Part shown: piece after piece, positions 10,192-63,714 of the stretch
Position numbering within the stretch: position 1 is the first letter of the stretch
Layout of the letters: each line of letters starts with the position of its first letter
Assembly: GCA_001874305.1 (NCBI GenBank)
Contig: MPCU01000009.1
Coordinates: forward strand, 62,001-126,000
Length of the DNA stretch: 64,000 bases
Source of the DNA: Bacteriovorax sp. MedPE-SWde
Lineage (GTDB): Bacteria; Bdellovibrionota; Bacteriovoracia; Bacteriovoracales; Bacteriovoracaceae
Direction of reading: 5' to 3'
Made by a program: the position numbers and the translations under genes
The notes under the pieces: model-generated
Database searches by the model: none
Seen by the model: the letters and a program-made list of their open reading frames with translations, nothing else
Told to the model about the DNA's origin: nothing

Positions 10192-10692
10192 ATGATGAAA
10201 GAATTATTAATGTTAGAGAGAATGGTTATAGAGTCGATTGCTAAAGGAGAGAAGAGTTTAAAATCAATTCAACTGGATACAGGCCTTGATTACTCATTAG
10301 TCTTATCTATTGCAGCCAAGCTTTTACAAAGAGGACTAGTTGACTATAAATACGGCGAATACAGTGTTTCTAAGAATGATATAAATTGGCAAAAAGTTAA
10401 TAGAGACGACAGTATAAAAAATGAAATAAAAGAAGTATCTGATAATATGATTGATATCTTCTTTGATGATAGAAGTCGTAATAAACTCAAGTTACAAAAA
10501 GTTTATATTAACAAACAAGATGAAAAGATTCTGAATTCTCTATTAAATAGTGTTGAGAATTTTGTTAATGATCTAAGAAAAGATCAAAAAGTAAATAATG
10601 TAAAAGTACAAACTAAAGATCAAAAAGTTTTGATGTGGGGTTATGGAGATTATCAGGATTTAGTACAAAATACGCTAAAGGTTGTTTCTTAG
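10192..10692 (+). CDS. hypothetical protein, possible winged-helix N-terminus
   Basis: ORF directly downstream of 9806..10186; 'KSIQLDTGLDYSLVLSIAAKLLQRGLVDYKYGEYSVS' resembles a wHTH. Confidence 0.5.
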   Translation: MMKELLMLERMVIESIAKGEKSLKSIQLDTGLDYSLVLSIAAKLLQRGLVDYKYGEYSVSKNDINWQKVNRDDSIKNEIKEVSDNMIDIFFDDRSRNKLKLQKVYINKQDEKILNSLLNSVENFVNDLRKDQKVNNVKVQTKDQKVLMWGYGDYQDLVQNTLKVVS

Positions 10693-11379
10693 TGAATCAA
10701 GTCTATTAATAATTAGCTCAGGATCTCTTTGAGAGTGTGCCAAACCACATGTTGCACTTATGTAAGAGATCCTTTCTGATAGGCTTGATACTGTTTCCTT
10801 TGTAGCCGAGTTTGTTGCTATAACTCCGGCCATAATATCAATTTTTTTAGAAATCAATCCTTCAATGTTAGGGTTCAGAATATAGTCAACTGAGAAAATA
10901 TCAAGAGGCAGAGAATTTATATAAGAAATATCTTTATTTAAAAGCTTCTTACAACAATGTATTCCAATCTTGGTAAAGTACTTTTTAGCGTACAGAATAA
11001 CTTCTTCGAGTTCTTGAGAGTGATTAATAATTGGCTCATCAAAGAAAAAATAAATATCTGTATCATTTGTAATTTTATAAATTTCCTCAATACAATCATA
11101 AATATCAGAAACATTACCAGGATAGGTATTAGGTCCAACAAGTTGAACTTTGAGATGAGATTTACCTCGCTTTCTGGCTTCATTAATAAATAGTTCCAAG
11201 TACTTAAAATTACAGTTTTTAACTTGGTCGATCATATCTCCATGAATATTTAGTAATTGGGGAAAGAAGGGGAGCTCATGCTTAAATGAGTAAGCTAATG
11301 CTTCGTCTATATCTCTGAAGGGAAGACTACCTACTCCTGTTGTGAGTATATCCTTAGCCATTGTAGCCATAGGTATCAA
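10675..11379 (-). CDS. MetE/UROD-like TIM-barrel protein, short methionine synthase-like
   Basis: 'TTGVGSLPFRDIDEA', HxC-like 'IGIHCCKK' and C-terminal 'TCGLAHSQRD' resemble the MetE catalytic domain zinc site. Confidence 0.7.
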   Translation of the reverse strand: MIPMATMAKDILTTGVGSLPFRDIDEALAYSFKHELPFFPQLLNIHGDMIDQVKNCNFKYLELFINEARKRGKSHLKVQLVGPNTYPGNVSDIYDCIEEIYKITNDTDIYFFFDEPIINHSQELEEVILYAKKYFTKIGIHCCKKLLNKDISYINSLPLDIFSVDYILNPNIEGLISKKIDIMAGVIATNSATKETVSSLSERISYISATCGLAHSQRDPELIINRLDSLRNNL

Positions 11380-40151: not shown

Positions 40152-41234
40152 ATGAAATTATTAAGTCTTAGTATTGTTATGCTTTTTACGTCACTGTCGT
40201 TCGCCATGAGTGAAGGAAGGCCAGGCCCTCATAGAGAAGCTACTAAAGGTCTTGTTAATGAAGTCGTAAGTACTTATTCTAAGAATTTTCAAAAAAGTAT
40301 CAAAGCCTATAATAGTAGAAGGAGTCATATTGGTGCTCTTTCTAAAGCTATAAAGAACGATAGAAAGAGAAAGCAATTTCTATCCTATACGTCACAACAC
40401 GGAATTAAAGTCTTTCCTAAAATTATTTATAAAGATGGAGCTGCTAAGATAAAGCTTGGTAAGAACCTCATAAAGTTCTCAGTGGGAACTCTCTTTGATC
40501 GCTATATTTTAGTCAATGGTATTCGTGTACCACTAGATAATGGTGATTTCTATAAGCAGTTAGATTCTTTAAAGAAGAACCTAGGAGCTAAGAAGAAATT
40601 CTCTATGTTTGATCTCTTTATTGGAGAAGCTGTAGCAGCTTATGACAAGAGATTTGAAAATACCCTGTTTGGAACAATTATTATTTTAAATGAAACCTTT
40701 GAAGAGAATTCATGGTGCTACTTTTGTGAAGATGAATATCATGAAGCAACAAAGAAGAACTTTGAAAAGGTCATGGCCGACATCTCTACGAGGGCCAATA
40801 ACTGTAAATCTGGTGAAGATGAAGGTGATTATTTTGGATACCAACTAGAAGAGCTAGGGACTTACGCAAGTGCTGGTTATGATCTAAGAGAGAAATTAAA
40901 TTCATATTTTAAATCTTATACTGATGAAAATCTTAATTGTGAGTCAATGGTTAATAATCTTTATAAAGAAGAGATAAAAGGATTAAAAGGTAAGATTGGT
41001 TTCTATTCAGATTCAATATCAATTCGAAATAAAAGAGAAAGCAATAAGCAAGCATATCAAAACTATATTAAGAATAAATGTACTCCATATGTAGAATTAA
41101 GAAACTGTTTAATAGATAAGAGTTATGCAGCTAAAGGCATTTATAATAAAGAAAGAAAGTCTGATGGTAAGAAGAGTATTAGAAGTTCAGACTCATTAAA
41201 TAAAGAATACAGACCAAGCTCTACTACTCGATAG
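40152..41234 (+). CDS. hypothetical secreted protein
   Basis: Signal peptide 'MKLLSLSIVMLFTSLSFAMSEG'. Confidence 0.6.
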   Translation: MKLLSLSIVMLFTSLSFAMSEGRPGPHREATKGLVNEVVSTYSKNFQKSIKAYNSRRSHIGALSKAIKNDRKRKQFLSYTSQHGIKVFPKIIYKDGAAKIKLGKNLIKFSVGTLFDRYILVNGIRVPLDNGDFYKQLDSLKKNLGAKKKFSMFDLFIGEAVAAYDKRFENTLFGTIIILNETFEENSWCYFCEDEYHEATKKNFEKVMADISTRANNCKSGEDEGDYFGYQLEELGTYASAGYDLREKLNSYFKSYTDENLNCESMVNNLYKEEIKGLKGKIGFYSDSISIRNKRESNKQAYQNYIKNKCTPYVELRNCLIDKSYAAKGIYNKERKSDGKKSIRSSDSLNKEYRPSSTTR

Positions 41235-41404: not shown

Positions 41405-43471
41405 ATGAATAAGGTCATTTCGAGATCTTTATTGATTTTAGTTTTACTTTCAGCGACAAGCTTTGCAAAAGGCCTTGTTAAACTAGATCAGAAATCTGTT
41501 CCTCAAAATTCTCTCGCAGAAGTTCAAAGCTTCGTTGATGAGGTAAACGAACTTATCCCAACAGAAATTACAAGTCGATTTAAGTATCAAGTTAAGTTGG
41601 TATTCAAAAAATATAAAGACAATAAGGGGTTTTCAGAGCTTCCTGATAATAGATGTAATTCAAATGTAAAATTAAAGTATGCTCACGTTAGTGCTTTCAA
41701 TAAGAAGAAAATCTATATAACACCTTTGTTTATTAATGAGATTGTAAAAGGTGAGTCTGGAAGTAAACAGTTTCCTTGTGGTCACAAGAACTATTATAAG
41801 AAGGCGATTGCTACTGTTCTTCATGAAGTAGGTCACCTGTATGACTTTAAAAGAATAAGATCAAAGCAGCATGATAAGAATGTTAAAAACTGTCTCGATA
41901 GAAATGGAGATAGTCATAATAAATCTTTTAGAAATACACCAAAGTGTAGAAGAGTTGAAAGAGAAGATAGAAATAAGAAAACTATAAGTGGACTACAGTC
42001 TTTTTATAAACTTAGTAACTGGGATCGTGGTTTTTTTACGAAAAGTGCTAAGAACTTATCAAGAAAGAGAACACCAGATGCTTATGAGTATAAGAACTTA
42101 GAAGAGCACTATGCAGTTAACTTAGAATATTTCTTATTAGACCCAGAGTATAAATGTAGAAGACCTTCATATTACAAATACTATAATAAGAAATTTAATC
42201 ATGTTCCATTTCCTGGACATGAGTGCAAAATCTATACGGAAGTAATCCTTGATGACAAAAATGTTATTAGAGATATAAATCCTGAAAGAGTATACAGAGT
42301 AGATTATCTCTTAGCTTCTAAGGGCGCAGGATTAATGTCTGGATTTGGACATTCAATGTACAGAATTGTTCTTTGTGCACCTCATAGAAAAGTAGTAGAT
42401 GAGAAATGTCTTAGAGATAAACTACACCATGTTGTTCTTAGCTATAGAGCAAATGTAACAGATATTAAAATTGATTCGATCAAAGGTTTACTTGGTGGAT
42501 ATGATTCAGTTCTCTTTATGCTTTCGTTTCCTAATGTAATTGAAGAGTACAACTTAGGCGAGCTTAGAGACTTAATCAGTCAGCCAATCGATTTTACAGT
42601 AGAGCAGAAGAAAGACTTCATTCACAAAGTACTTGAAGTTTATTGGGAGTACGAAGGTGATTATAAGTTCATTACGAATAATTGTGCTTCGGAATCACAT
42701 GACTTACTTCAGTCAGCATTAAACGAACACGAAATAATTAATAATAGCGTTTTAAAACCATACTCTGTCTATGATGAGATTGTTGAAAACAAGTTATCGA
42801 AAGAGAGTTACTTCAAAGATATGAAAGAAGCAGTGGCCAAAGGGCGATTCTTCTCAAGTGATAAAGAGAGACTAAGGCAGGCAAAGCTAAACCTCTTTGG
42901 AGAAGAAGAATCTGACTATAAGAAAGTTAGAAAAAACTTTGGGCCTCAAAAACGTAGATTGAGACGATTTAAAAAGAAGCTAAGAGATATTAAAGAGATT
43001 TATGAAAATTTTGATGTATCGAGATTATCAAATAAGTTTGATGAACTACAAGATGCACAGAGAAACTTAGAAACAAAAAGAAATATGAATGACTTAGCGA
43101 TTATGACGAGGGCCATTCTACAAATTAGACAATTTAAGATCGACGAAGAAGTTGGATCTTACTTAGAAGAAAATATTGAATCTGAATCAGAGATTGGGTT
43201 AAGAATCAAAAAGTGGAATGACATGAGAGCATCATCAAGAGTTAAACCATTTGATGGCGGTTATGGAATCCCTGCAACGCTTACTAATAATGACCTCGAT
43301 AAGCACAACAGTCACTTCGAGGTACTTAAAGACATCGAATTAGAGTTAATTACGGATGTTAAGAGTAAGTTTAGAAACGATGTAGATGACTTATTAGAAT
43401 TAAATAACTTACTAAAAGAAATAAGAAAACAAGCAAGAATAATATCAATAGACACTTACTTTACTAAATAG
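41405..43471 (+). CDS. secreted HExxH metalloprotease-like protein with DUF4105/Lnb-like region
   Basis: Signal peptide; 'IATVLHEVGHLYDF' and 'NLEEHYAVNLEYFLLDPEYKCRRP'; C-terminal 'GHSMYRIVLCAP...FITNNCASESHDLL'. Confidence 0.65.
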   Translation: MNKVISRSLLILVLLSATSFAKGLVKLDQKSVPQNSLAEVQSFVDEVNELIPTEITSRFKYQVKLVFKKYKDNKGFSELPDNRCNSNVKLKYAHVSAFNKKKIYITPLFINEIVKGESGSKQFPCGHKNYYKKAIATVLHEVGHLYDFKRIRSKQHDKNVKNCLDRNGDSHNKSFRNTPKCRRVEREDRNKKTISGLQSFYKLSNWDRGFFTKSAKNLSRKRTPDAYEYKNLEEHYAVNLEYFLLDPEYKCRRPSYYKYYNKKFNHVPFPGHECKIYTEVILDDKNVIRDINPERVYRVDYLLASKGAGLMSGFGHSMYRIVLCAPHRKVVDEKCLRDKLHHVVLSYRANVTDIKIDSIKGLLGGYDSVLFMLSFPNVIEEYNLGELRDLISQPIDFTVEQKKDFIHKVLEVYWEYEGDYKFITNNCASESHDLLQSALNEHEIINNSVLKPYSVYDEIVENKLSKESYFKDMKEAVAKGRFFSSDKERLRQAKLNLFGEEESDYKKVRKNFGPQKRRLRRFKKKLRDIKEIYENFDVSRLSNKFDELQDAQRNLETKRNMNDLAIMTRAILQIRQFKIDEEVGSYLEENIESESEIGLRIKKWNDMRASSRVKPFDGGYGIPATLTNNDLDKHNSHFEVLKDIELELITDVKSKFRNDVDDLLELNNLLKEIRKQARIISIDTYFTK

Positions 43472-43480
43472 GAGAAAAGA

Positions 43481-44353
43481 ATGAACAAACTTACTAAAGC
43501 AGCACTAATCGGACTACTCGCACTTAACACTATGTCAGCGGACCTAAGAGACGCAAGTCTAAAGGGAACATCGGACACTGTTAACTTTACGCTAGATAAA
43601 GCAAATAGCTCTTTTAAGGCAACTGTAGATGCAGCAGAAGTATCAGCAGAAAAACTAAAGGCCTTCTTCTCTAAAAACTTTGCTTCTTCAATTGAAGCAT
43701 CAGGAAAGATTGGAGAGATGGTTGTAAAGGTTTCAGAAATTTCTGAGCCAGTAATCGAATTAACACAAGATGGACTAGTAATGTCATTTGAGGCATCAAA
43801 GTCTACAGCAGAAAAACTATATATCGTACTTGAGCCATCTTCGGATGTGTCATCAGAAGTTCTTGGAGAACTTCTAAAGCATGCTTCAAAAGGAAGTGAA
43901 TCAACATCAGACCTAATCTCTGAAATCGTTGATATCCTATCTAAAACTTTTGAAAAGCCACTTGAACTTACAGAGATGACTGTAGAGAAACTTCTTGAAG
44001 TAATAACTAAAGGAAGTGAAGCTTCAACTGAGGTAACAGAAAGTATTCTAGGTGAAGAAAACCTTGATAACGCATTTGAGTTAACAGGAAAGGGAATTTC
44101 AGTAACATCTCAAGGTATCTCAGCAGCACTATACTTCGTAACAAAAACAGTATCAGGAATCTCAAGAATCTTTGATGTATATAGAGAAGAAGTAGAGCAA
44201 GCAGTAGAGAGACAAGACGAAGATATGCTTGCAGGAATAAGAGACATGATTAGAGCAGAGATTGAAAAAGAAGTTAAGGGTGGAGAAACTCTTAATAAGG
44301 TAATCTCAGACGACGCACTAAACGTTTATATTGAAACTCAATTAGCAATGTAA
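43481..44353 (+). CDS. hypothetical Ser/Glu-rich helical secreted protein
   Basis: Signal-like N-terminus; recurring 'SE.STE...LSEI..I..' helical segments; 9 nt downstream of the previous gene. Confidence 0.6.
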   Translation: MNKLTKAALIGLLALNTMSADLRDASLKGTSDTVNFTLDKANSSFKATVDAAEVSAEKLKAFFSKNFASSIEASGKIGEMVVKVSEISEPVIELTQDGLVMSFEASKSTAEKLYIVLEPSSDVSSEVLGELLKHASKGSESTSDLISEIVDILSKTFEKPLELTEMTVEKLLEVITKGSEASTEVTESILGEENLDNAFELTGKGISVTSQGISAALYFVTKTVSGISRIFDVYREEVEQAVERQDEDMLAGIRDMIRAEIEKEVKGGETLNKVISDDALNVYIETQLAM

Positions 44354-44362
44354 TTCATAATT

Positions 44363-44385
44363 CTCCTCCGCTTTCTGCGGGGGAG
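44363..44385. terminator. hairpin between convergent genes
   Basis: CTCCTCCGC-TTTCT-GCGGGGGAG; weak tails on both strands. Confidence 0.5.
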
Positions 44386-44394
44386 ATACTTCAT

Positions 44395-44769
44395 TTACTT
44401 GATACCTCTTTTTTCAAGTTCTAGTTTGAGATACTTTACTTCTAACTCTTGAAACCTTTTTAAAATATCCTTGATCACTGCTTGAAGCCACTTCGGTTGT
44501 TCATCTGAATTTGCTAAGAATGATGCATCGATTATCATGCACTTCGTATTTGTTATGGCCCTGGCCGATGCTGTTCTCCTGTGATTACCTAATAATGCAA
44601 GAGTTCCAAGGACTTCGCCCTTGCCAATTCTATTTAAGACAATCTCTTCGCAGTTTCTCTCTTTATAGACTTCGATTTTACCGCTTTCTACAAAGTAGAG
44701 AACTTCACTTTCATGTCCCTCGTCAAATAGGATCTCTCCAGCTTTAAAATACTTGTACGCTTTACTCAT
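44395..44769 (-). CDS. single-domain cyclic nucleotide-binding-like protein
   Basis: 'YFKAGEILFDEGHESEVLYFVESGKIEVYKE...IGKGEVLGTLALLGNHRRTASARA' resembles a CNB fold with PBC; no HTH. Confidence 0.85.
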   Translation of the reverse strand: MSKAYKYFKAGEILFDEGHESEVLYFVESGKIEVYKERNCEEIVLNRIGKGEVLGTLALLGNHRRTASARAITNTKCMIIDASFLANSDEQPKWLQAVIKDILKRFQELEVKYLKLELEKRGIK

Positions 44770-44850
44770 CTTTTTTTTTCCCGTGTAAAATAAAACACAT
44801 TTGATTTATATTTAAATAATATAACTTTAAACAATAAAAGAGGAATAAAA

Positions 44851-45771
44851 ATGAATGAGGTAAAATTTGATAGTATTGACGGTGATATTGCCGATCTTGT
44901 TTCAAAGTACTCTTTCTCGAGTGAGAATAATGAAATAATTATGAAGAACTCATCTTTTTTTCTCGAAACATTAGATGAGTCAATTGAGATTTTTTATACG
45001 TGGATGAAAGAGCAAAGCAATACTTTTGATGAATATTTTGCAGATGCTAAATTAATGATAACAGTAAAGAAGCTTCAAAAGTCATATTGGGAAACTTTCT
45101 TTTCTCAAGAGATTAATCAGGAATATATTGACTCTAGAAAGAAGGTAGGACAAGTTCACGCTCAGATAAACCTACCTCTTGAAATCTACTGTGCAGCAAT
45201 GAACAAATTTCAAATTATTTGGGATAATATTATTTCGAGTAAGAACTTTTCAAATGAAGTCGAACTTATTAAATGTATTCACAGAAAAATGAATATTGAT
45301 AGTTCTATCGTTTCTGCTACTTACAATATGTTAACAAATAAGAGAATTGCAGATCAAAATAGGGCCCTTCTCGAAATGTCTACTCCAGTAACTCTAATCT
45401 GGGACAGGATTTTACTCTTACCTATTGTTGGAATCCTTGATTCTAAGAGAACTCTGGATATGATGGATTCAATACTAAAAGAGATCTCACGTTCTCAAGC
45501 TGTTGTTGCCCTTATCGATATTAGTGGTGTAGCCGTTGTTGATACAGCAGTTGCTAATCATCTAATTAAAGTTACCAAGGCCACTAAGCTTATGGGTTGT
45601 GAAACGATAATCTCCGGTGTGTCCCCAGTCATTGCCCATACTATTGTTGACCTAGGAATTAGAATCGGCGAAATCAAAACAACTGCGGCCCTTAAAGATG
45701 CTCTTAGTATTGCGCTAAAGAAAGTGGAAGAATTGAAAATAGAGAATACGAATAAACATGCACAACTATAA
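44851..45771 (+). CDS. rsbR: stressosome scaffold/sensor RsbR: globin-like N-terminus plus STAS domain
   Basis: 'FYTWMKEQ...LQKSYWETFFSQEINQEYIDSRKKVGQVHAQINLPLEIYCAAMNKF' globin-coupled-sensor-like; STAS 'ALIDISGVAVVDTAVANHLIKVTKATKLMGCETIISGVSPVIAHTIVDLGI'. Confidence 0.9.
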   Translation: MNEVKFDSIDGDIADLVSKYSFSSENNEIIMKNSSFFLETLDESIEIFYTWMKEQSNTFDEYFADAKLMITVKKLQKSYWETFFSQEINQEYIDSRKKVGQVHAQINLPLEIYCAAMNKFQIIWDNIISSKNFSNEVELIKCIHRKMNIDSSIVSATYNMLTNKRIADQNRALLEMSTPVTLIWDRILLLPIVGILDSKRTLDMMDSILKEISRSQAVVALIDISGVAVVDTAVANHLIKVTKATKLMGCETIISGVSPVIAHTIVDLGIRIGEIKTTAALKDALSIALKKVEELKIENTNKHAQL

Positions 45772-46129
45772 TGCTAAAAATTTTAGACTGAATATTCACA
45801 TTAATAGCGATATCTTAACTGCTACTATGCAAGGAAGTGGAACTAGTAGAGAGCTTGAAGATGGTCGATACTTTATTTTAAATAACGTGCAAGAAAATAG
45901 TTTAAAAGGCGTCGTCCTTGATTTATCTGGTATGAATCTCATCGATAGTACCGAGTTTAGAGAAATCCAAGATACGATAAAGATGATTGAAATTCTCGGA
46001 GTAAAGGTCGTACTGATCGGATTAAATCAAGGAGTCATATCACATTTAGTAAATATGAATATCGAACTTGATGGAATGAGAACTACATGTAGCATGTCTA
46101 GTGCTATAGAGATTTTAAATAGGATATGA
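45758..46129 (+). CDS. rsbS: stressosome STAS protein RsbS
   Basis: 'GVVLDLSGMNLIDSTEFREIQDTIKMIEILGVKVVLIGLNQGVISHLV'; Ser in 'IDS' matches the RsbS phosphosite context. Confidence 0.85.
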   Translation: MHNYNAKNFRLNIHINSDILTATMQGSGTSRELEDGRYFILNNVQENSLKGVVLDLSGMNLIDSTEFREIQDTIKMIEILGVKVVLIGLNQGVISHLVNMNIELDGMRTTCSMSSAIEILNRI

Positions 46130-46521
46130 ATATTTTTAAAAATTACATAAAAGATCAAACAGATATAGCACAACTGATACTACTTGCGAGTGACTATCTA
46201 GTAGAAACGGGATTTTCACAAAGAGATTGTGAGGTTATGAAAACAGTTATCTCTGAGCTTGCTTACAATATAGTAAAATACGCTGGAAAGGGAGTTCTTA
46301 CGATACAAAGAATCAGTAAAGGACAAAATAAAGGTGTCGAAATAAAGGCAAGTGATAACGGCCCCGGAATAGAAGATGTTGATGAGGCCATGACTGATCA
46401 TAAGAGTTCTGGAGATACTTTAGGACTTGGGTTACCAAGTGTGAAGAGAATGATGGACGAGTTTGAAATATCATCAAATCCTGAAGATGGAACGACTATC
46501 TTAACAAGGAAATGGTTGTAA
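46126..46521 (+). CDS. rsbT: stressosome switch kinase RsbT
   Basis: GHKL motifs 'ISELAYNIVKYA', 'DNGPGI', 'DTLGLGLPSVKRMMDEFEI'; ATGA overlap with rsbS. Confidence 0.9.
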   Translation: MNIFKNYIKDQTDIAQLILLASDYLVETGFSQRDCEVMKTVISELAYNIVKYAGKGVLTIQRISKGQNKGVEIKASDNGPGIEDVDEAMTDHKSSGDTLGLGLPSVKRMMDEFEISSNPEDGTTILTRKWL

Positions 46522-47103
46522 ATGAATTTCTCCGTCGGTGAATATATACGTCCATGTAAAGATGAAAAGGTTAGTGGTGATATTATTATCGTTAAAGAGC
46601 TTGAGGACTCTTTGCAAGTTTCTATGGTTGATGTCCTTGGTCATGGAGATGATGCCCATGCCGTCGCAAAAAAGATTGAGCGGTTTCTAATGAGTACTGA
46701 GGCATTAAGTCCTTCTTCTATACTTAAGGCACTAAATAAAGATATTCAGTCTACGAGAGGTGCTGCCGTTGGTATATGTAATATTCATAGAGAGTCTGGA
46801 GCTATAACATATTCAGGAATAGGCAATACGGGAATACGTATTCGTAGTAGTAAAGTCTTCGGAGGGTTTTCTAAAGAGGGAGTTGTAGGTCAATATACAA
46901 GGTCCATAGAGGACATAGAAGGTAGCATAAATAATGGGGACATTATAATTATGTACTCTGATGGACTTACTTCTCGCTTCAACTTTCCACAAATAAGTAA
47001 TGAAACAAATGAAAGCTTATCAGTTATTGCACGTGACTTTGTCTATGAATATGGAAAAGAGTTTGATGACTCCTCCTGCGTAATAATAGAGTGTAGAAAA
47101 TGA
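46522..47103 (+). CDS. rsbX: PP2C/SpoIIE-type phosphatase, RsbX-like
   Basis: 'MVDVLGHGDDAHAVA', 'GNTG', 'IIMYSDGLTSRF'; immediately after rsbT. Confidence 0.85.
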   Translation: MNFSVGEYIRPCKDEKVSGDIIIVKELEDSLQVSMVDVLGHGDDAHAVAKKIERFLMSTEALSPSSILKALNKDIQSTRGAAVGICNIHRESGAITYSGIGNTGIRIRSSKVFGGFSKEGVVGQYTRSIEDIEGSINNGDIIIMYSDGLTSRFNFPQISNETNESLSVIARDFVYEYGKEFDDSSCVIIECRK

Positions 47104-48434
47104 TCGAATTAGGGGCAGTTCTTGTTAAAAATAGTTACTCCATCGCAAAGTTTCGTGAAAAAGTATATCACTTATCTCGTAAATTAAATTTCTCAGATGT
47201 TGCTAGCGCTCGTTTTGGAGCAATATTCTCAGAGTTATGTAGATTGTTAAGTACCAATAGTAATGGGTTATTCGTTGAGATTTTTCTATCTAAGAAAGTT
47301 GAAGGTATTACAATTGTATATAAGTTACACTCTACGGATGTTTCTCAAGACATATTAATCGATTCTCTCGACTACTTTTCTTCAAGTCGAATAATAAATG
47401 GTGAATTAATAACTCTTGAATTAGAGATTGATTACAATAGTTTGAATTTGAGTTCTTCTTTAATTATAGAATTGACAGAAATTATTTTGAAAAAGAATAG
47501 AGAAGAGTTAATAGGCGAAGTTCAAGAGAAAAATGAAGAACTTACTCTTATCAATAAATCCCTTGAAAAGTTTGTTCCAGCTGACTTTCTAAAGTTTTTA
47601 GGAAAGGGAAGTATTAGTGACTTTAAACTAGGTGACGCTCTTGAAACTGACTTTACAATTTTGTTTACTGATATGCGCTCTTTTAGTTCTATCTCTGAAA
47701 ACATGACTCCAAACGAACTTCTTGAGTTCATGAATAAGTATCTTGACGTAGTTGTTCCTATAATAAGTGAAAATAATGGTTTTATTATTACTTATATCGG
47801 AGATGCAATTATGTGTGCTTTCCCTGGTGGAAGTGTCGATGCCGCTAATTGTTCTATTGAGATGATCAAAAAGGTTAATGAATATAACCTATCACTAGTT
47901 AAAACACTCGGACGAAAGGTTAGAATTGGAGTCGGAATAAATAAAGGAAAAACAGTAATTGGAATTCTTGGAAATGAACTAAGAATGGAGCCTGCTATTA
48001 TGTCTGACGTTGTAAATCTAAGTGCAAGGCTTGAGGCCTTAACAAAAGGTTATGATGCCGACATTATAATTAGCGATAGTGTCTATAAAGATTTAAAGGG
48101 GCATGAGTTACTATCTCAAATTAGGCAAATCGATTGTGTACAAGTCGTCGGTCGTGTAACCCCTGAAAAAATTTATGAAGTTGTAATTAGTAATAGTGAT
48201 ACAAAGATTGTTAATAAAAGAAATTATGAAAATGCTCTAAATCTCTATTTCGATAAGAAAATTATAGAAAGCTATAAAGCCTTGGCGGAACTTGAGCCAG
48301 GTGAAGATAAGGCCGTTGAAATCTTATCGAAGCGCTGTAAAGAAGTTGTCGTTTTTGATGAAAATGGCTTTCCCGTAGGTGAAGATATTCCAAATGGATG
48401 GACACCAATCAACTCTATTAAAACTAAGCTTTGA
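47100..48434 (+). CDS. class III nucleotidyl cyclase with N-terminal GHKL-remnant-like domain
   Basis: 'KFVPADFLKFLGKGSISDFKLGDALETDFTILFTDMRSFSSISENMTPNELLEFMNKYL', 'YIGDAIMCAFPGG', 'SDVVNLSARLEALTKGY'; ATGA overlap with rsbX. Confidence 0.9.
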   Translation: MIELGAVLVKNSYSIAKFREKVYHLSRKLNFSDVASARFGAIFSELCRLLSTNSNGLFVEIFLSKKVEGITIVYKLHSTDVSQDILIDSLDYFSSSRIINGELITLELEIDYNSLNLSSSLIIELTEIILKKNREELIGEVQEKNEELTLINKSLEKFVPADFLKFLGKGSISDFKLGDALETDFTILFTDMRSFSSISENMTPNELLEFMNKYLDVVVPIISENNGFIITYIGDAIMCAFPGGSVDAANCSIEMIKKVNEYNLSLVKTLGRKVRIGVGINKGKTVIGILGNELRMEPAIMSDVVNLSARLEALTKGYDADIIISDSVYKDLKGHELLSQIRQIDCVQVVGRVTPEKIYEVVISNSDTKIVNKRNYENALNLYFDKKIIESYKALAELEPGEDKAVEILSKRCKEVVVFDENGFPVGEDIPNGWTPINSIKTKL

Positions 48435-48517: not shown

Positions 48518-48593
<76 letters not shown>

Positions 48594-61463: not shown

Positions 61464-63714
61464 ATTTGTCAGTTAGAGTGTAGACTCCATCCCAATCGTC
61501 TGGTGGTGGAGATTTTTTAAATGCTTTACTTCTTTCTATATATACTTTTGAAGGGTTTGTTTTTCGATTGATACCTGGAAAGCATCTTTCCTCCTCTTTC
61601 TCTGTTTCTTGAAATATTTTAAGGGCCTTGTCCCATTCTTGATTCTTATATAGCTTAAGACCTTTCTCGAAGCTTTCTTTTAATTTTATAATGTCTGGGC
61701 TCAAGTCATTGGCAAGACCTAAGAGCTCATAAGTTGTGACAGGCTCACTCTTTCCAACTACTCGGATAGTATCGATCTCTCTTGTGATAAATTCAGGGCC
61801 TGCGCTATCTTTTGTTACTTGGGATATGTATGAGTAGATACCGTATTGTTTGGCCGCTTCTTCGAGTCTTGCCGCTAAGTTTACAGAGTCTCCCATCATT
61901 GTGTAGTTCATACGGTCACGAGAGCCCATATTTCCTGTTACAATCTCACCTGAGTTTATACCGATTCTCATTCTCATTTGCTTTACGACTTCTGGCCACT
62001 TGTCTCCTTCACTTATCCATTTTTCTCGTAAGTCGCCAAGGACATCTTGCATTCTTATGGCAACTCGACATGCACGAGCGGCGTGATCTTCAAATATTAC
62101 AGGCGCCCCGAAAAAAGCAATGATGGCATCACCCTCATATTTGTCTAGTGTTCCGTGTTCCTCGAGTAAAATGTCGGTCATTTCTGTTAAGTATTCGTTT
62201 AGAAGTTCTACTAGTTGTTTGGCAGTCAACTTTTCAGAAAAAGTGGAAAAGGATTGAATGTCGGTAAAGTACGCCGTTAGGTTATGGGATTCTCCACCAA
62301 GTTCAGGTAGGTGTCCCGAATCGTACATCATATCAATGAGCTCTGGTGAGATATAGTTTCCAAATGCTTGTTTTAGAAAAGTTCTATCCTTATTCGCCAA
62401 ATAGAAGCTGATTGCACTGTCTAGAATGTAGGCGAGCACCACGGGGAAGAAGGCAAAGAACATAGCTATTTCATAGCCATTGGGAATGAAATAGAGAACA
62501 TCGGAGATGAAAACGAGAAAGCAATACCCGGCTATATAACTTGCATCAACTACAGCATTTTTTAAAAGTGAGATTAAGACAAACCCTAAGTATCCAACTA
62601 GTAAGATAGACCATGACCATAGAAATGCATCATCAATTGATTTGTATAAGCGTCCTGAAACTAGCATTTGAAGAACATTCATATGATAGTAGACGCCTGG
62701 AAGTTTTGCATCGATTGGACTATGTCTAAGATCGTGAGCACCAAAAGCAGTAGAGCCAATAAAGACAACTTTACCATTTAATAATTTTTTTAGTGACTCA
62801 TTATCATCTTCTCTTTCTACGATAGTTGCTAAACTTATCCTTGGAAAAGCAGATGTTCTACCGGCCCAGTTAACTCTCGATTCTCCATTATAATTTAGAA
62901 ACACATCACCCGTTTTAAGAGATAGTGTAGCATCACCAGACGCTGCAATTGAAAGCTTAGGGTTGTCTCCTGTGTATTTTGTATATGCCATGAGTGCTAG
63001 AGAATTGAAGTAGAGTGATTCAACATTTGCTACTAATGGATATTTTCTAAAAATTCCATCGGGGTCTTCCTTGATATCTATATAAGCTAAAGAAGCTGAA
63101 CTATTGATGACTTCTTTAATTGGATATGTGGTCGACATTACTCTGTGTTCTTCAAGTCCCTGAGGGCCATCTTGTTTAACCTCAAGCATGAAGTTGAATA
63201 AATCACTCGGTAATTCCTTAAAAGATACTTCGTCATCATTGGTATGCATTGAAGATAATGAGTAAGGGATAATAACAGAATTCCCCTCAATAGATTGAAA
63301 GCTTTTTATCGCCTCTGCAAACTTTTCGTCAGGAGAACGGCCTTTGAAAAATCTTTCTTTTTCAGAGAAAACAACATCAAAAACCACAACCTTTGCGCCA
63401 AAGATTTTGAGTTTATTTAAAATTGGAACCCATGAATTTCTTGACCAAGGGAATCGGCCAAACTTTTTTAGAGAGATTTCGTCAATCGCTGCAAGAACGA
63501 TTCTATTCTCTCGAAACTCTTCATCTAGCACCACATTCATTCTGTGATCGTAAAAGTAGTTCTCAAAATAGGAGGGGTAGGTGAGCTGTTTTTTAGTTGA
63601 TGGTGCAAGTCCAGAATTCAAGATCTCCCGCTCAAATTGATATAGAGTCATGCTAAGAGTTGCAAAGACAAAGATAAGTATCAATCCAAGGTTTCGTACG
63701 AATTTACTAGACAC
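61462..63714 (-). CDS. CHASE2-domain adenylate/guanylate cyclase
   Basis: N-terminal TM + CHASE2-like ('VLAAIDEISLKKFGRFPWSRNSW', 'GKVVFIGSTAFGAHDLRHSPI'), three TM helices, class III cyclase 'AYFTDIQSFSTFSEKL', 'LDKYEGDAIIAFFGAP', 'MNYTMMGDSVNLAARLE'. Confidence 0.94.
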   Translation of the reverse strand: MSSKFVRNLGLILIFVFATLSMTLYQFEREILNSGLAPSTKKQLTYPSYFENYFYDHRMNVVLDEEFRENRIVLAAIDEISLKKFGRFPWSRNSWVPILNKLKIFGAKVVVFDVVFSEKERFFKGRSPDEKFAEAIKSFQSIEGNSVIIPYSLSSMHTNDDEVSFKELPSDLFNFMLEVKQDGPQGLEEHRVMSTTYPIKEVINSSASLAYIDIKEDPDGIFRKYPLVANVESLYFNSLALMAYTKYTGDNPKLSIAASGDATLSLKTGDVFLNYNGESRVNWAGRTSAFPRISLATIVEREDDNESLKKLLNGKVVFIGSTAFGAHDLRHSPIDAKLPGVYYHMNVLQMLVSGRLYKSIDDAFLWSWSILLVGYLGFVLISLLKNAVVDASYIAGYCFLVFISDVLYFIPNGYEIAMFFAFFPVVLAYILDSAISFYLANKDRTFLKQAFGNYISPELIDMMYDSGHLPELGGESHNLTAYFTDIQSFSTFSEKLTAKQLVELLNEYLTEMTDILLEEHGTLDKYEGDAIIAFFGAPVIFEDHAARACRVAIRMQDVLGDLREKWISEGDKWPEVVKQMRMRIGINSGEIVTGNMGSRDRMNYTMMGDSVNLAARLEEAAKQYGIYSYISQVTKDSAGPEFITREIDTIRVVGKSEPVTTYELLGLANDLSPDIIKLKESFEKGLKLYKNQEWDKALKIFQETEKEEERCFPGINRKTNPSKVYIERSKAFKKSPPPDDWDGVYTLTDK

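Follow-up and report, generated by a model that had tools for sequence, protein, structure and literature searches.

The 64,000-nucleotide stretch of Bacteriovorax sp. MedPE-SWde DNA analysed here (the window) carries a five-gene operon that, at a probability of roughly 0.6, encodes a haem-globin stressosome, composed of an RsbR/RsbS shell, RsbT and RsbX, with a class III nucleotidyl cyclase as its dedicated output, switched by freed RsbT. The cyclase is a well-supported putative output of the stressosome, because its N-terminal adaptor domain is found fused to other enzymes in the same slot of related operons, with the same start-stop overlap. Such an operon would link oxygen sensing to cNMP signaling within five genes and, through its cyclase, extend the stressosome outputs to mononucleotide second messengers.

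Organization of the operon

Five co-directional open reading frames are located at positions 44851-48434 in the order RsbR-RsbS-RsbT-RsbX-class III cyclase, all on the plus strand. RsbR (44851-45771, 306 aa) matches Protoglobin (PF11563, 1e-20) and STAS (8e-10), and RsbS (45758-46129, 123 aa) matches STAS (PF01740, 1.9e-7). The GHKL serine kinase RsbT (46126-46521, 131 aa) matches HATPase_c_2 (PF13581, 1.4e-11), the single-domain PP2C/SpoIIE-type phosphatase RsbX (46522-47103, 193 aa) matches SpoIIE (PF07228, 1.2e-10), and the cyclase (47100-48434, 444 aa) matches Guanylate_cyc (PF00211, 6.1e-17). The rsbR and rsbS genes overlap by 14 nt, rsbS and rsbT by an ATGA, and rsbX and the cyclase gene by another ATGA, while rsbT and rsbX abut directly (TAA/ATG). 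Both the coordinates and the junction types described in an earlier sequence-only reading were reproduced. Since five specific domain families follow each other in the RSTX order with overlaps of the translational-coupling kind, the operon is not a product of chance. The earlier reading had also placed an AT-rich promoter region before rsbR and a weak terminator 3' of the cyclase. The intergenic stretch between a divergent cNMP-binding gene and rsbR (44770..44850) is indeed AT-rich, but the promoter scan gave no match standing out and no clear consensus promoter between the divergent genes, and the terminator was absent from the scan.

Globin sensor, kinase and phosphatase

RsbR starts with the protoglobin domain, followed by STAS, and its closest solved relative is the O2-sensing Vibrio vulnificus RsbR of stressosome structure 7o0i, which residues 14-292 match at 2.9e-78. 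The distal Tyr (IFYTW) and the proximal His (GQVHAQ) align with those of 7o0i, making RsbR, as far as its sequence tells, a sensor of the haem-globin type. The RsbR of V. brasiliensis has the same Tyr and His and is a haem protein that binds O2 (PMC4976288). Haem and oxygen probably provide the readout of the RsbR-based stress shell, for which RsbR would be the sensor. In a phylogenetic tree, RsbR falls within a clade of globin RsbRs (support 99/96) from cyanobacteria, Acidobacteriota, Legionellaceae, Vibrio and Flammeovirga, apart from the RsbRs of other sampled members of its own phylum; this grouping away from the phylum suggests that the stressosome module was acquired.

The phosphorylation motifs are those of a stressosome. 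Both RsbR-family threonines are kept in RsbR, T178 (MSTPV) and T232 (VVDT), and the 'IDS' phosphosite of RsbS, previously placed at S64 by counting, was confirmed there by its position in the alignment, so that both STAS proteins carry their Thr/Ser phosphosites. Adjoining RsbS, RsbT has the intact ATP-site boxes that had been read from the sequence, namely the N box ELAYN from residue 44, G1 DNGPGI from 77 and G2 GLGLP from 100. The catalytic PP2C Asp motifs are present in RsbX, which is 35% identical to the cyanobacterial RsbX. RsbX comes straight after RsbT and is followed by the output gene, the order of haem-globin-type RSTX modules (PMC9237108).

A degenerate RsbT-like adaptor opens the cyclase protein

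About 160 residues precede the catalytic domain of the cyclase and are claimed by no Pfam model at cut-off. HMM searches, hhalign, AF2 and Foldseek define residues 1-162 (47100..47585, plus strand) as a degenerate RsbT/RsbW-like GHKL domain with a helical linker, instead of an RsbU_N domain (PF08673). Alignment of the adaptor with RsbT by hhalign gave a probability of 94-96% and scored 58.3, with 13% identity in the profile alignment; none of 60 column-shuffled controls scored above 17.0. The AF2 model of the adaptor, built with four homologs, reached a pLDDT of 81.8, and the first 13 solved structures found with the adaptor by Foldseek were UsfX, RsbW and SpoIIAB, with modest E-values, none better than 0.0024; AlphaFold on the whole cyclase in single-sequence mode gave a pLDDT of 34.5 and no usable model. 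The N box, G1 and G2 of active GHKL kinases are all lost, so kinase-like ATP binding is not expected of the adaptor, which is predicted to be pseudokinase-like.

In six other globin-type RSTX loci, the gene that immediately follows RsbX begins with the same adaptor. The adaptor is fused to PP2C in two cyanobacteria (L096, L097) and to HisKA kinases in an acidobacterium (L095) and a legionellacean (L107); hybrid kinases carry it in a gammaproteobacterium (L184) and in Vibrio (THAF191d, L175), and a weaker match was found in the SpoIIE protein of L177. The ATGA overlap between RsbX and the output gene is identical in L095, L096 and L097. Among 9,749 frames, a leave-one-out adaptor HMM finds the window cyclase at an E-value of 6e-16 and the D1-like protein of Vibrio THAF191d, the most diverged member, at 2e-6. 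Within the helical linker that connects the adaptor to the attached enzyme, E140, K144, N145 and L148 are invariant. In the Legionellaceae locus L107, the globin-type stressosome and kinase are followed by a KaiB-like small protein (10552-10860, recognized by eye) and a receiver. The adaptor profile gave two clear matches in 369 gammaproteobacterial genomes, one of them the seed, and the seed as sole clear match in 339 cyanobacterial genomes, which indicates that globin-type operons with this adaptor are rare.

Sharing an adaptor with other enzymes in a conserved slot marks the cyclase as a catalytic-domain swap, and the stressosome output looks like a part that is swappable across operons. 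The authors of PMC12143880 proposed that PP2C, histidine kinase and GGDEF outputs are exchanged as modules. The earlier proposal of the cyclase as the module's output is supported beyond adjacency, through the shared adaptor in the same slot; the points left without support concern gene order in relatives and cyclic nucleotide synthesis, taken up below.

How the stressosome might control the cyclase

In the favored model, the globin of RsbR would undergo a change of ligand or redox state, upon which RsbT would phosphorylate RsbR (T178/T232) and RsbS (S64), by homology, and leave the shell. Freed RsbT would act on the cyclase via the RsbT-like pseudokinase domain and the helical linker, which would order or pair both cyclase domains within a dimer, whose activity would change, and RsbX would reset the shell. 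The product would be read by cyclic-nucleotide-binding proteins, possibly including the divergently encoded neighbor. The contact of RsbT with the cyclase, the direction of control, the catalytic activity, the product and its receptor are all predicted elements of this scheme. Class III cyclases work as dimers, which would make ordering of the linker a natural control point. In B. subtilis, RsbU is switched on when RsbT orders a coiled-coil linker and the phosphatase domains are thereby dimerised (PMC12143880), and gating of the cyclase by RsbT may be pictured along the same lines.

One observation speaks against a model in which RsbT acts on the output: no positive interaction was obtained between RsbT and VvD1, the output in V. 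vulnificus (PMC9237108). The undetected binding would fit another arrangement, in which the RsbT-like pseudokinase binds the STAS faces of RsbS and RsbR in competition with RsbT, so that the shell retains or releases the cyclase. The adaptor is homologous to RsbT and RsbW, both binders of STAS proteins, and in relatives of the same phylum both RsbX and the output kinase carry fused RsbT-like domains that are intact. Against this, the adaptor and RsbT share the above low identity, and that only in a profile alignment, and docking to the shell is considered possible but rather unlikely. For signal transfer by stressosomes outside Bacillales, the RsbT-like adaptor, present in several phyla, is a candidate contact.

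The cyclase domain

The class III nucleotidyl cyclase domain spans approximately residues 183-352 (47646..48155, plus strand), as delimited by PF00211, alignments to photoactivated cyclases and a residue table. Enzymes of this family produce signal nucleotides, cAMP among them. The metal-binding D191 and D235 and the transition-state residues N306 and R310 are kept, as in class III enzymes, and the cyclase is plausibly active, judged from these residues. Its base-recognition pair is T231/A299, in which K is replaced by T231 and T by A299, while all 29 compared relatives from the same class, as well as bPAC-type enzymes, carry K/T at these sites. The pair is neither of the ATP type (K-D/T) nor of the GTP type (E-C/S/G). 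With both residues altered, the substrate specificity of the cyclase is not predictable, and the proposal of the sequence-only reading that the output protein synthesizes a cyclic nucleotide is left unsupported.

These substitutions raise another explanation, namely that the domain is dead or takes another substrate, serving as a dimerisation or nucleotide-sensing module or making a non-canonical cyclic nucleotide in place of cAMP or cGMP. The replacements occur in the window cyclase only, and the neighboring cNMP-binding domain also lacks its usual Glu; retention of both metal Asp residues, of the transition-state N and R and of the overall domain would be unusual for a decayed enzyme, and this explanation is regarded as doubtful. 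A combined idea is more improbable still and is put forward as speculation: the RsbT-like pseudokinase, hitherto unrecognized, would be the common receiver driving globin-type outputs (kinase, phosphatase and, in the window, class III cyclase), and this cyclase, with a non-canonical receptor as its neighbor, would produce an unusual cyclic nucleotide with oxygen as the controlling signal.

Relatives of the cyclase were also sought. Close homologs of the whole protein were found neither in genome_contigs nor in viral_contigs, and plasmids gave matches to the cyclase domain alone, none with 80% coverage. Around L006 and L007, the relatives in the class that match the cyclase domain best, the short stretches examined contained no RST genes. 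The Spirulina locus L097 has a class III cyclase near RsbT, located on the opposite strand and beyond the PP2C output, and it was not counted as a second case. Among 80 RsbT loci no second stressosome-cyclase operon was found, and none of the seven other globin-type outputs is a class III cyclase. A second class III cyclase in the window lies in a 757-aa frame at about 61723-62286 on the minus strand.

Rival targets in the genome and modules in relatives

Neither an RsbW-like kinase nor an RsbU-like phosphatase that could serve as a rival target of RsbT is encoded as a stand-alone protein in the genome, and a Sigma-B type output was rejected on this ground. The sole other SpoIIE protein is a receiver-SpoIIE-HATPase protein (L222, G000:C9:444444-445358) that sits in an apparent polysaccharide-synthesis cluster. 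The gene order is not conserved in close relatives, as none of the five congeners searched has the module. It is conceivable, if very improbable, that the cyclase is a chance neighbor and that the true target of RsbT is a sigma/anti-sigma or two-component system elsewhere, as the block-wise insertion of a module missing from congeners and the histidine kinase outputs at other loci of the phylum would allow. The same-slot adaptor across phyla, the ATGA overlap and the genome content just described argue for the cyclase as the output. Points against the preferred reading of a cyclase switched by RsbT are the base-recognition changes, the missing second operon and the module-free congeners.

Other stressosome modules of the phylum end in histidine kinases. 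The output kinase opens with an intact RsbT-like domain in L084, L089 and L090 and with an RsbU_N domain in L081. Extra RsbT-like domains fused to RsbX and the output kinase were seen in L082, L084, L085, L086, L089, L090 and L094, and such operons hold up to three RsbT-like domains. Family-level relatives (family-f1, L091-L093) have reduced modules of a sensorless STAS protein, a short RsbS-like protein, RsbT and a histidine kinase, in which the kinase N-terminus is diverged and RsbX is missing.

Comparison with known stressosomes

The haem-globin stressosome of V. vulnificus and V. brasiliensis (PMC9237108, PMC4976288) shares with the window operon full-length homology of the globin RsbR, the RSTX order with X directly after T and the output gene next, and a degenerate RsbT-like N-terminus of the output. 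It differs in using a PAS-hybrid histidine kinase, D1, and a receiver/HD protein, D2, whereas the window operon has one cyclase gene. The cyanobacterial globin RSTX operons with PP2C (L096, L097) are alike in a clearly homologous output N-terminus and in the ATGA overlap of RsbX and output, with 47-48% identity for RsbT and 42-44% for RsbR, but their catalytic domain is an RsbU-like PP2C phosphatase rather than a cyclase. Moorella thermoacetica, according to the passages of PMC4976288 and PMC12143880 that cite it, likewise couples a stressosome to a second-messenger enzyme; that enzyme is a GGDEF diguanylate cyclase reached via RsbU_N, whereas the window enzyme is a class III mononucleotide cyclase whose N-terminus is RsbT-like. 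The RsbRST-RsbU-RsbV-RsbW-SigB system of Bacillus subtilis follows the same RsbR/RsbS/RsbT/RsbX logic with its phosphosites, yet has a non-haem globin RsbR and an RsbU_N adaptor, and its phosphatase, anti-sigma and sigma output are absent from the window system.

A survey of globin RSTX modules described eleven downstream architectures, and class III cyclase is not among the named domains; most outputs, those of Vibrio included, are without RsbU_N, and a transient contact was proposed (PMC9237108). In line with the earlier statement that no characterised stressosome is known to have a class III cyclase output, full-text searches found none within the literature covered.

Divergent cNMP-binding gene and the inserted segment

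A stand-alone cyclic-nucleotide-binding domain of 124 aa is encoded at 44395..44769 on the minus strand (PF00027, 3.4e-20; aligned to cGMP-dependent kinases), and its gene starts 82 bases upstream of rsbR. The phosphate-binding Arg is kept, and the ribose-binding Glu (GE) reads GT. No ortholog was found in the genus, where the best match is 34%. This protein is possibly the receptor of the cyclase product, for which it is a candidate.

Both the gene and the operon belong to one inserted segment. In congener G050 (L211), the left-flank gene (40152-41234) lies next to tRNA-Met and the 48765 gene, which makes roughly 41.4-48.4 kb extra sequence in the window genome; tRNA-Met (CAT; 48518..48593, minus strand), assigned by ARAGORN and by synteny with G050, forms the right border. 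Besides the cNMP-binding gene and the stressosome operon, the segment (41405-48434) contains a DUF7844-Lnb_N protein and an unassigned 290-aa protein. Integration of an element targeted to the tRNA was considered and rejected: the flanks showed no direct repeat of the 3' end of the tRNA, and no att-like repeat or integrase was found, so the term inserted segment is used. That the operon and the cNMP-binding gene share the segment is suggestive at most. The genome encodes 15 cNMP-binding proteins, including two CRP/FNR-type regulators and a cNMP-gated channel.
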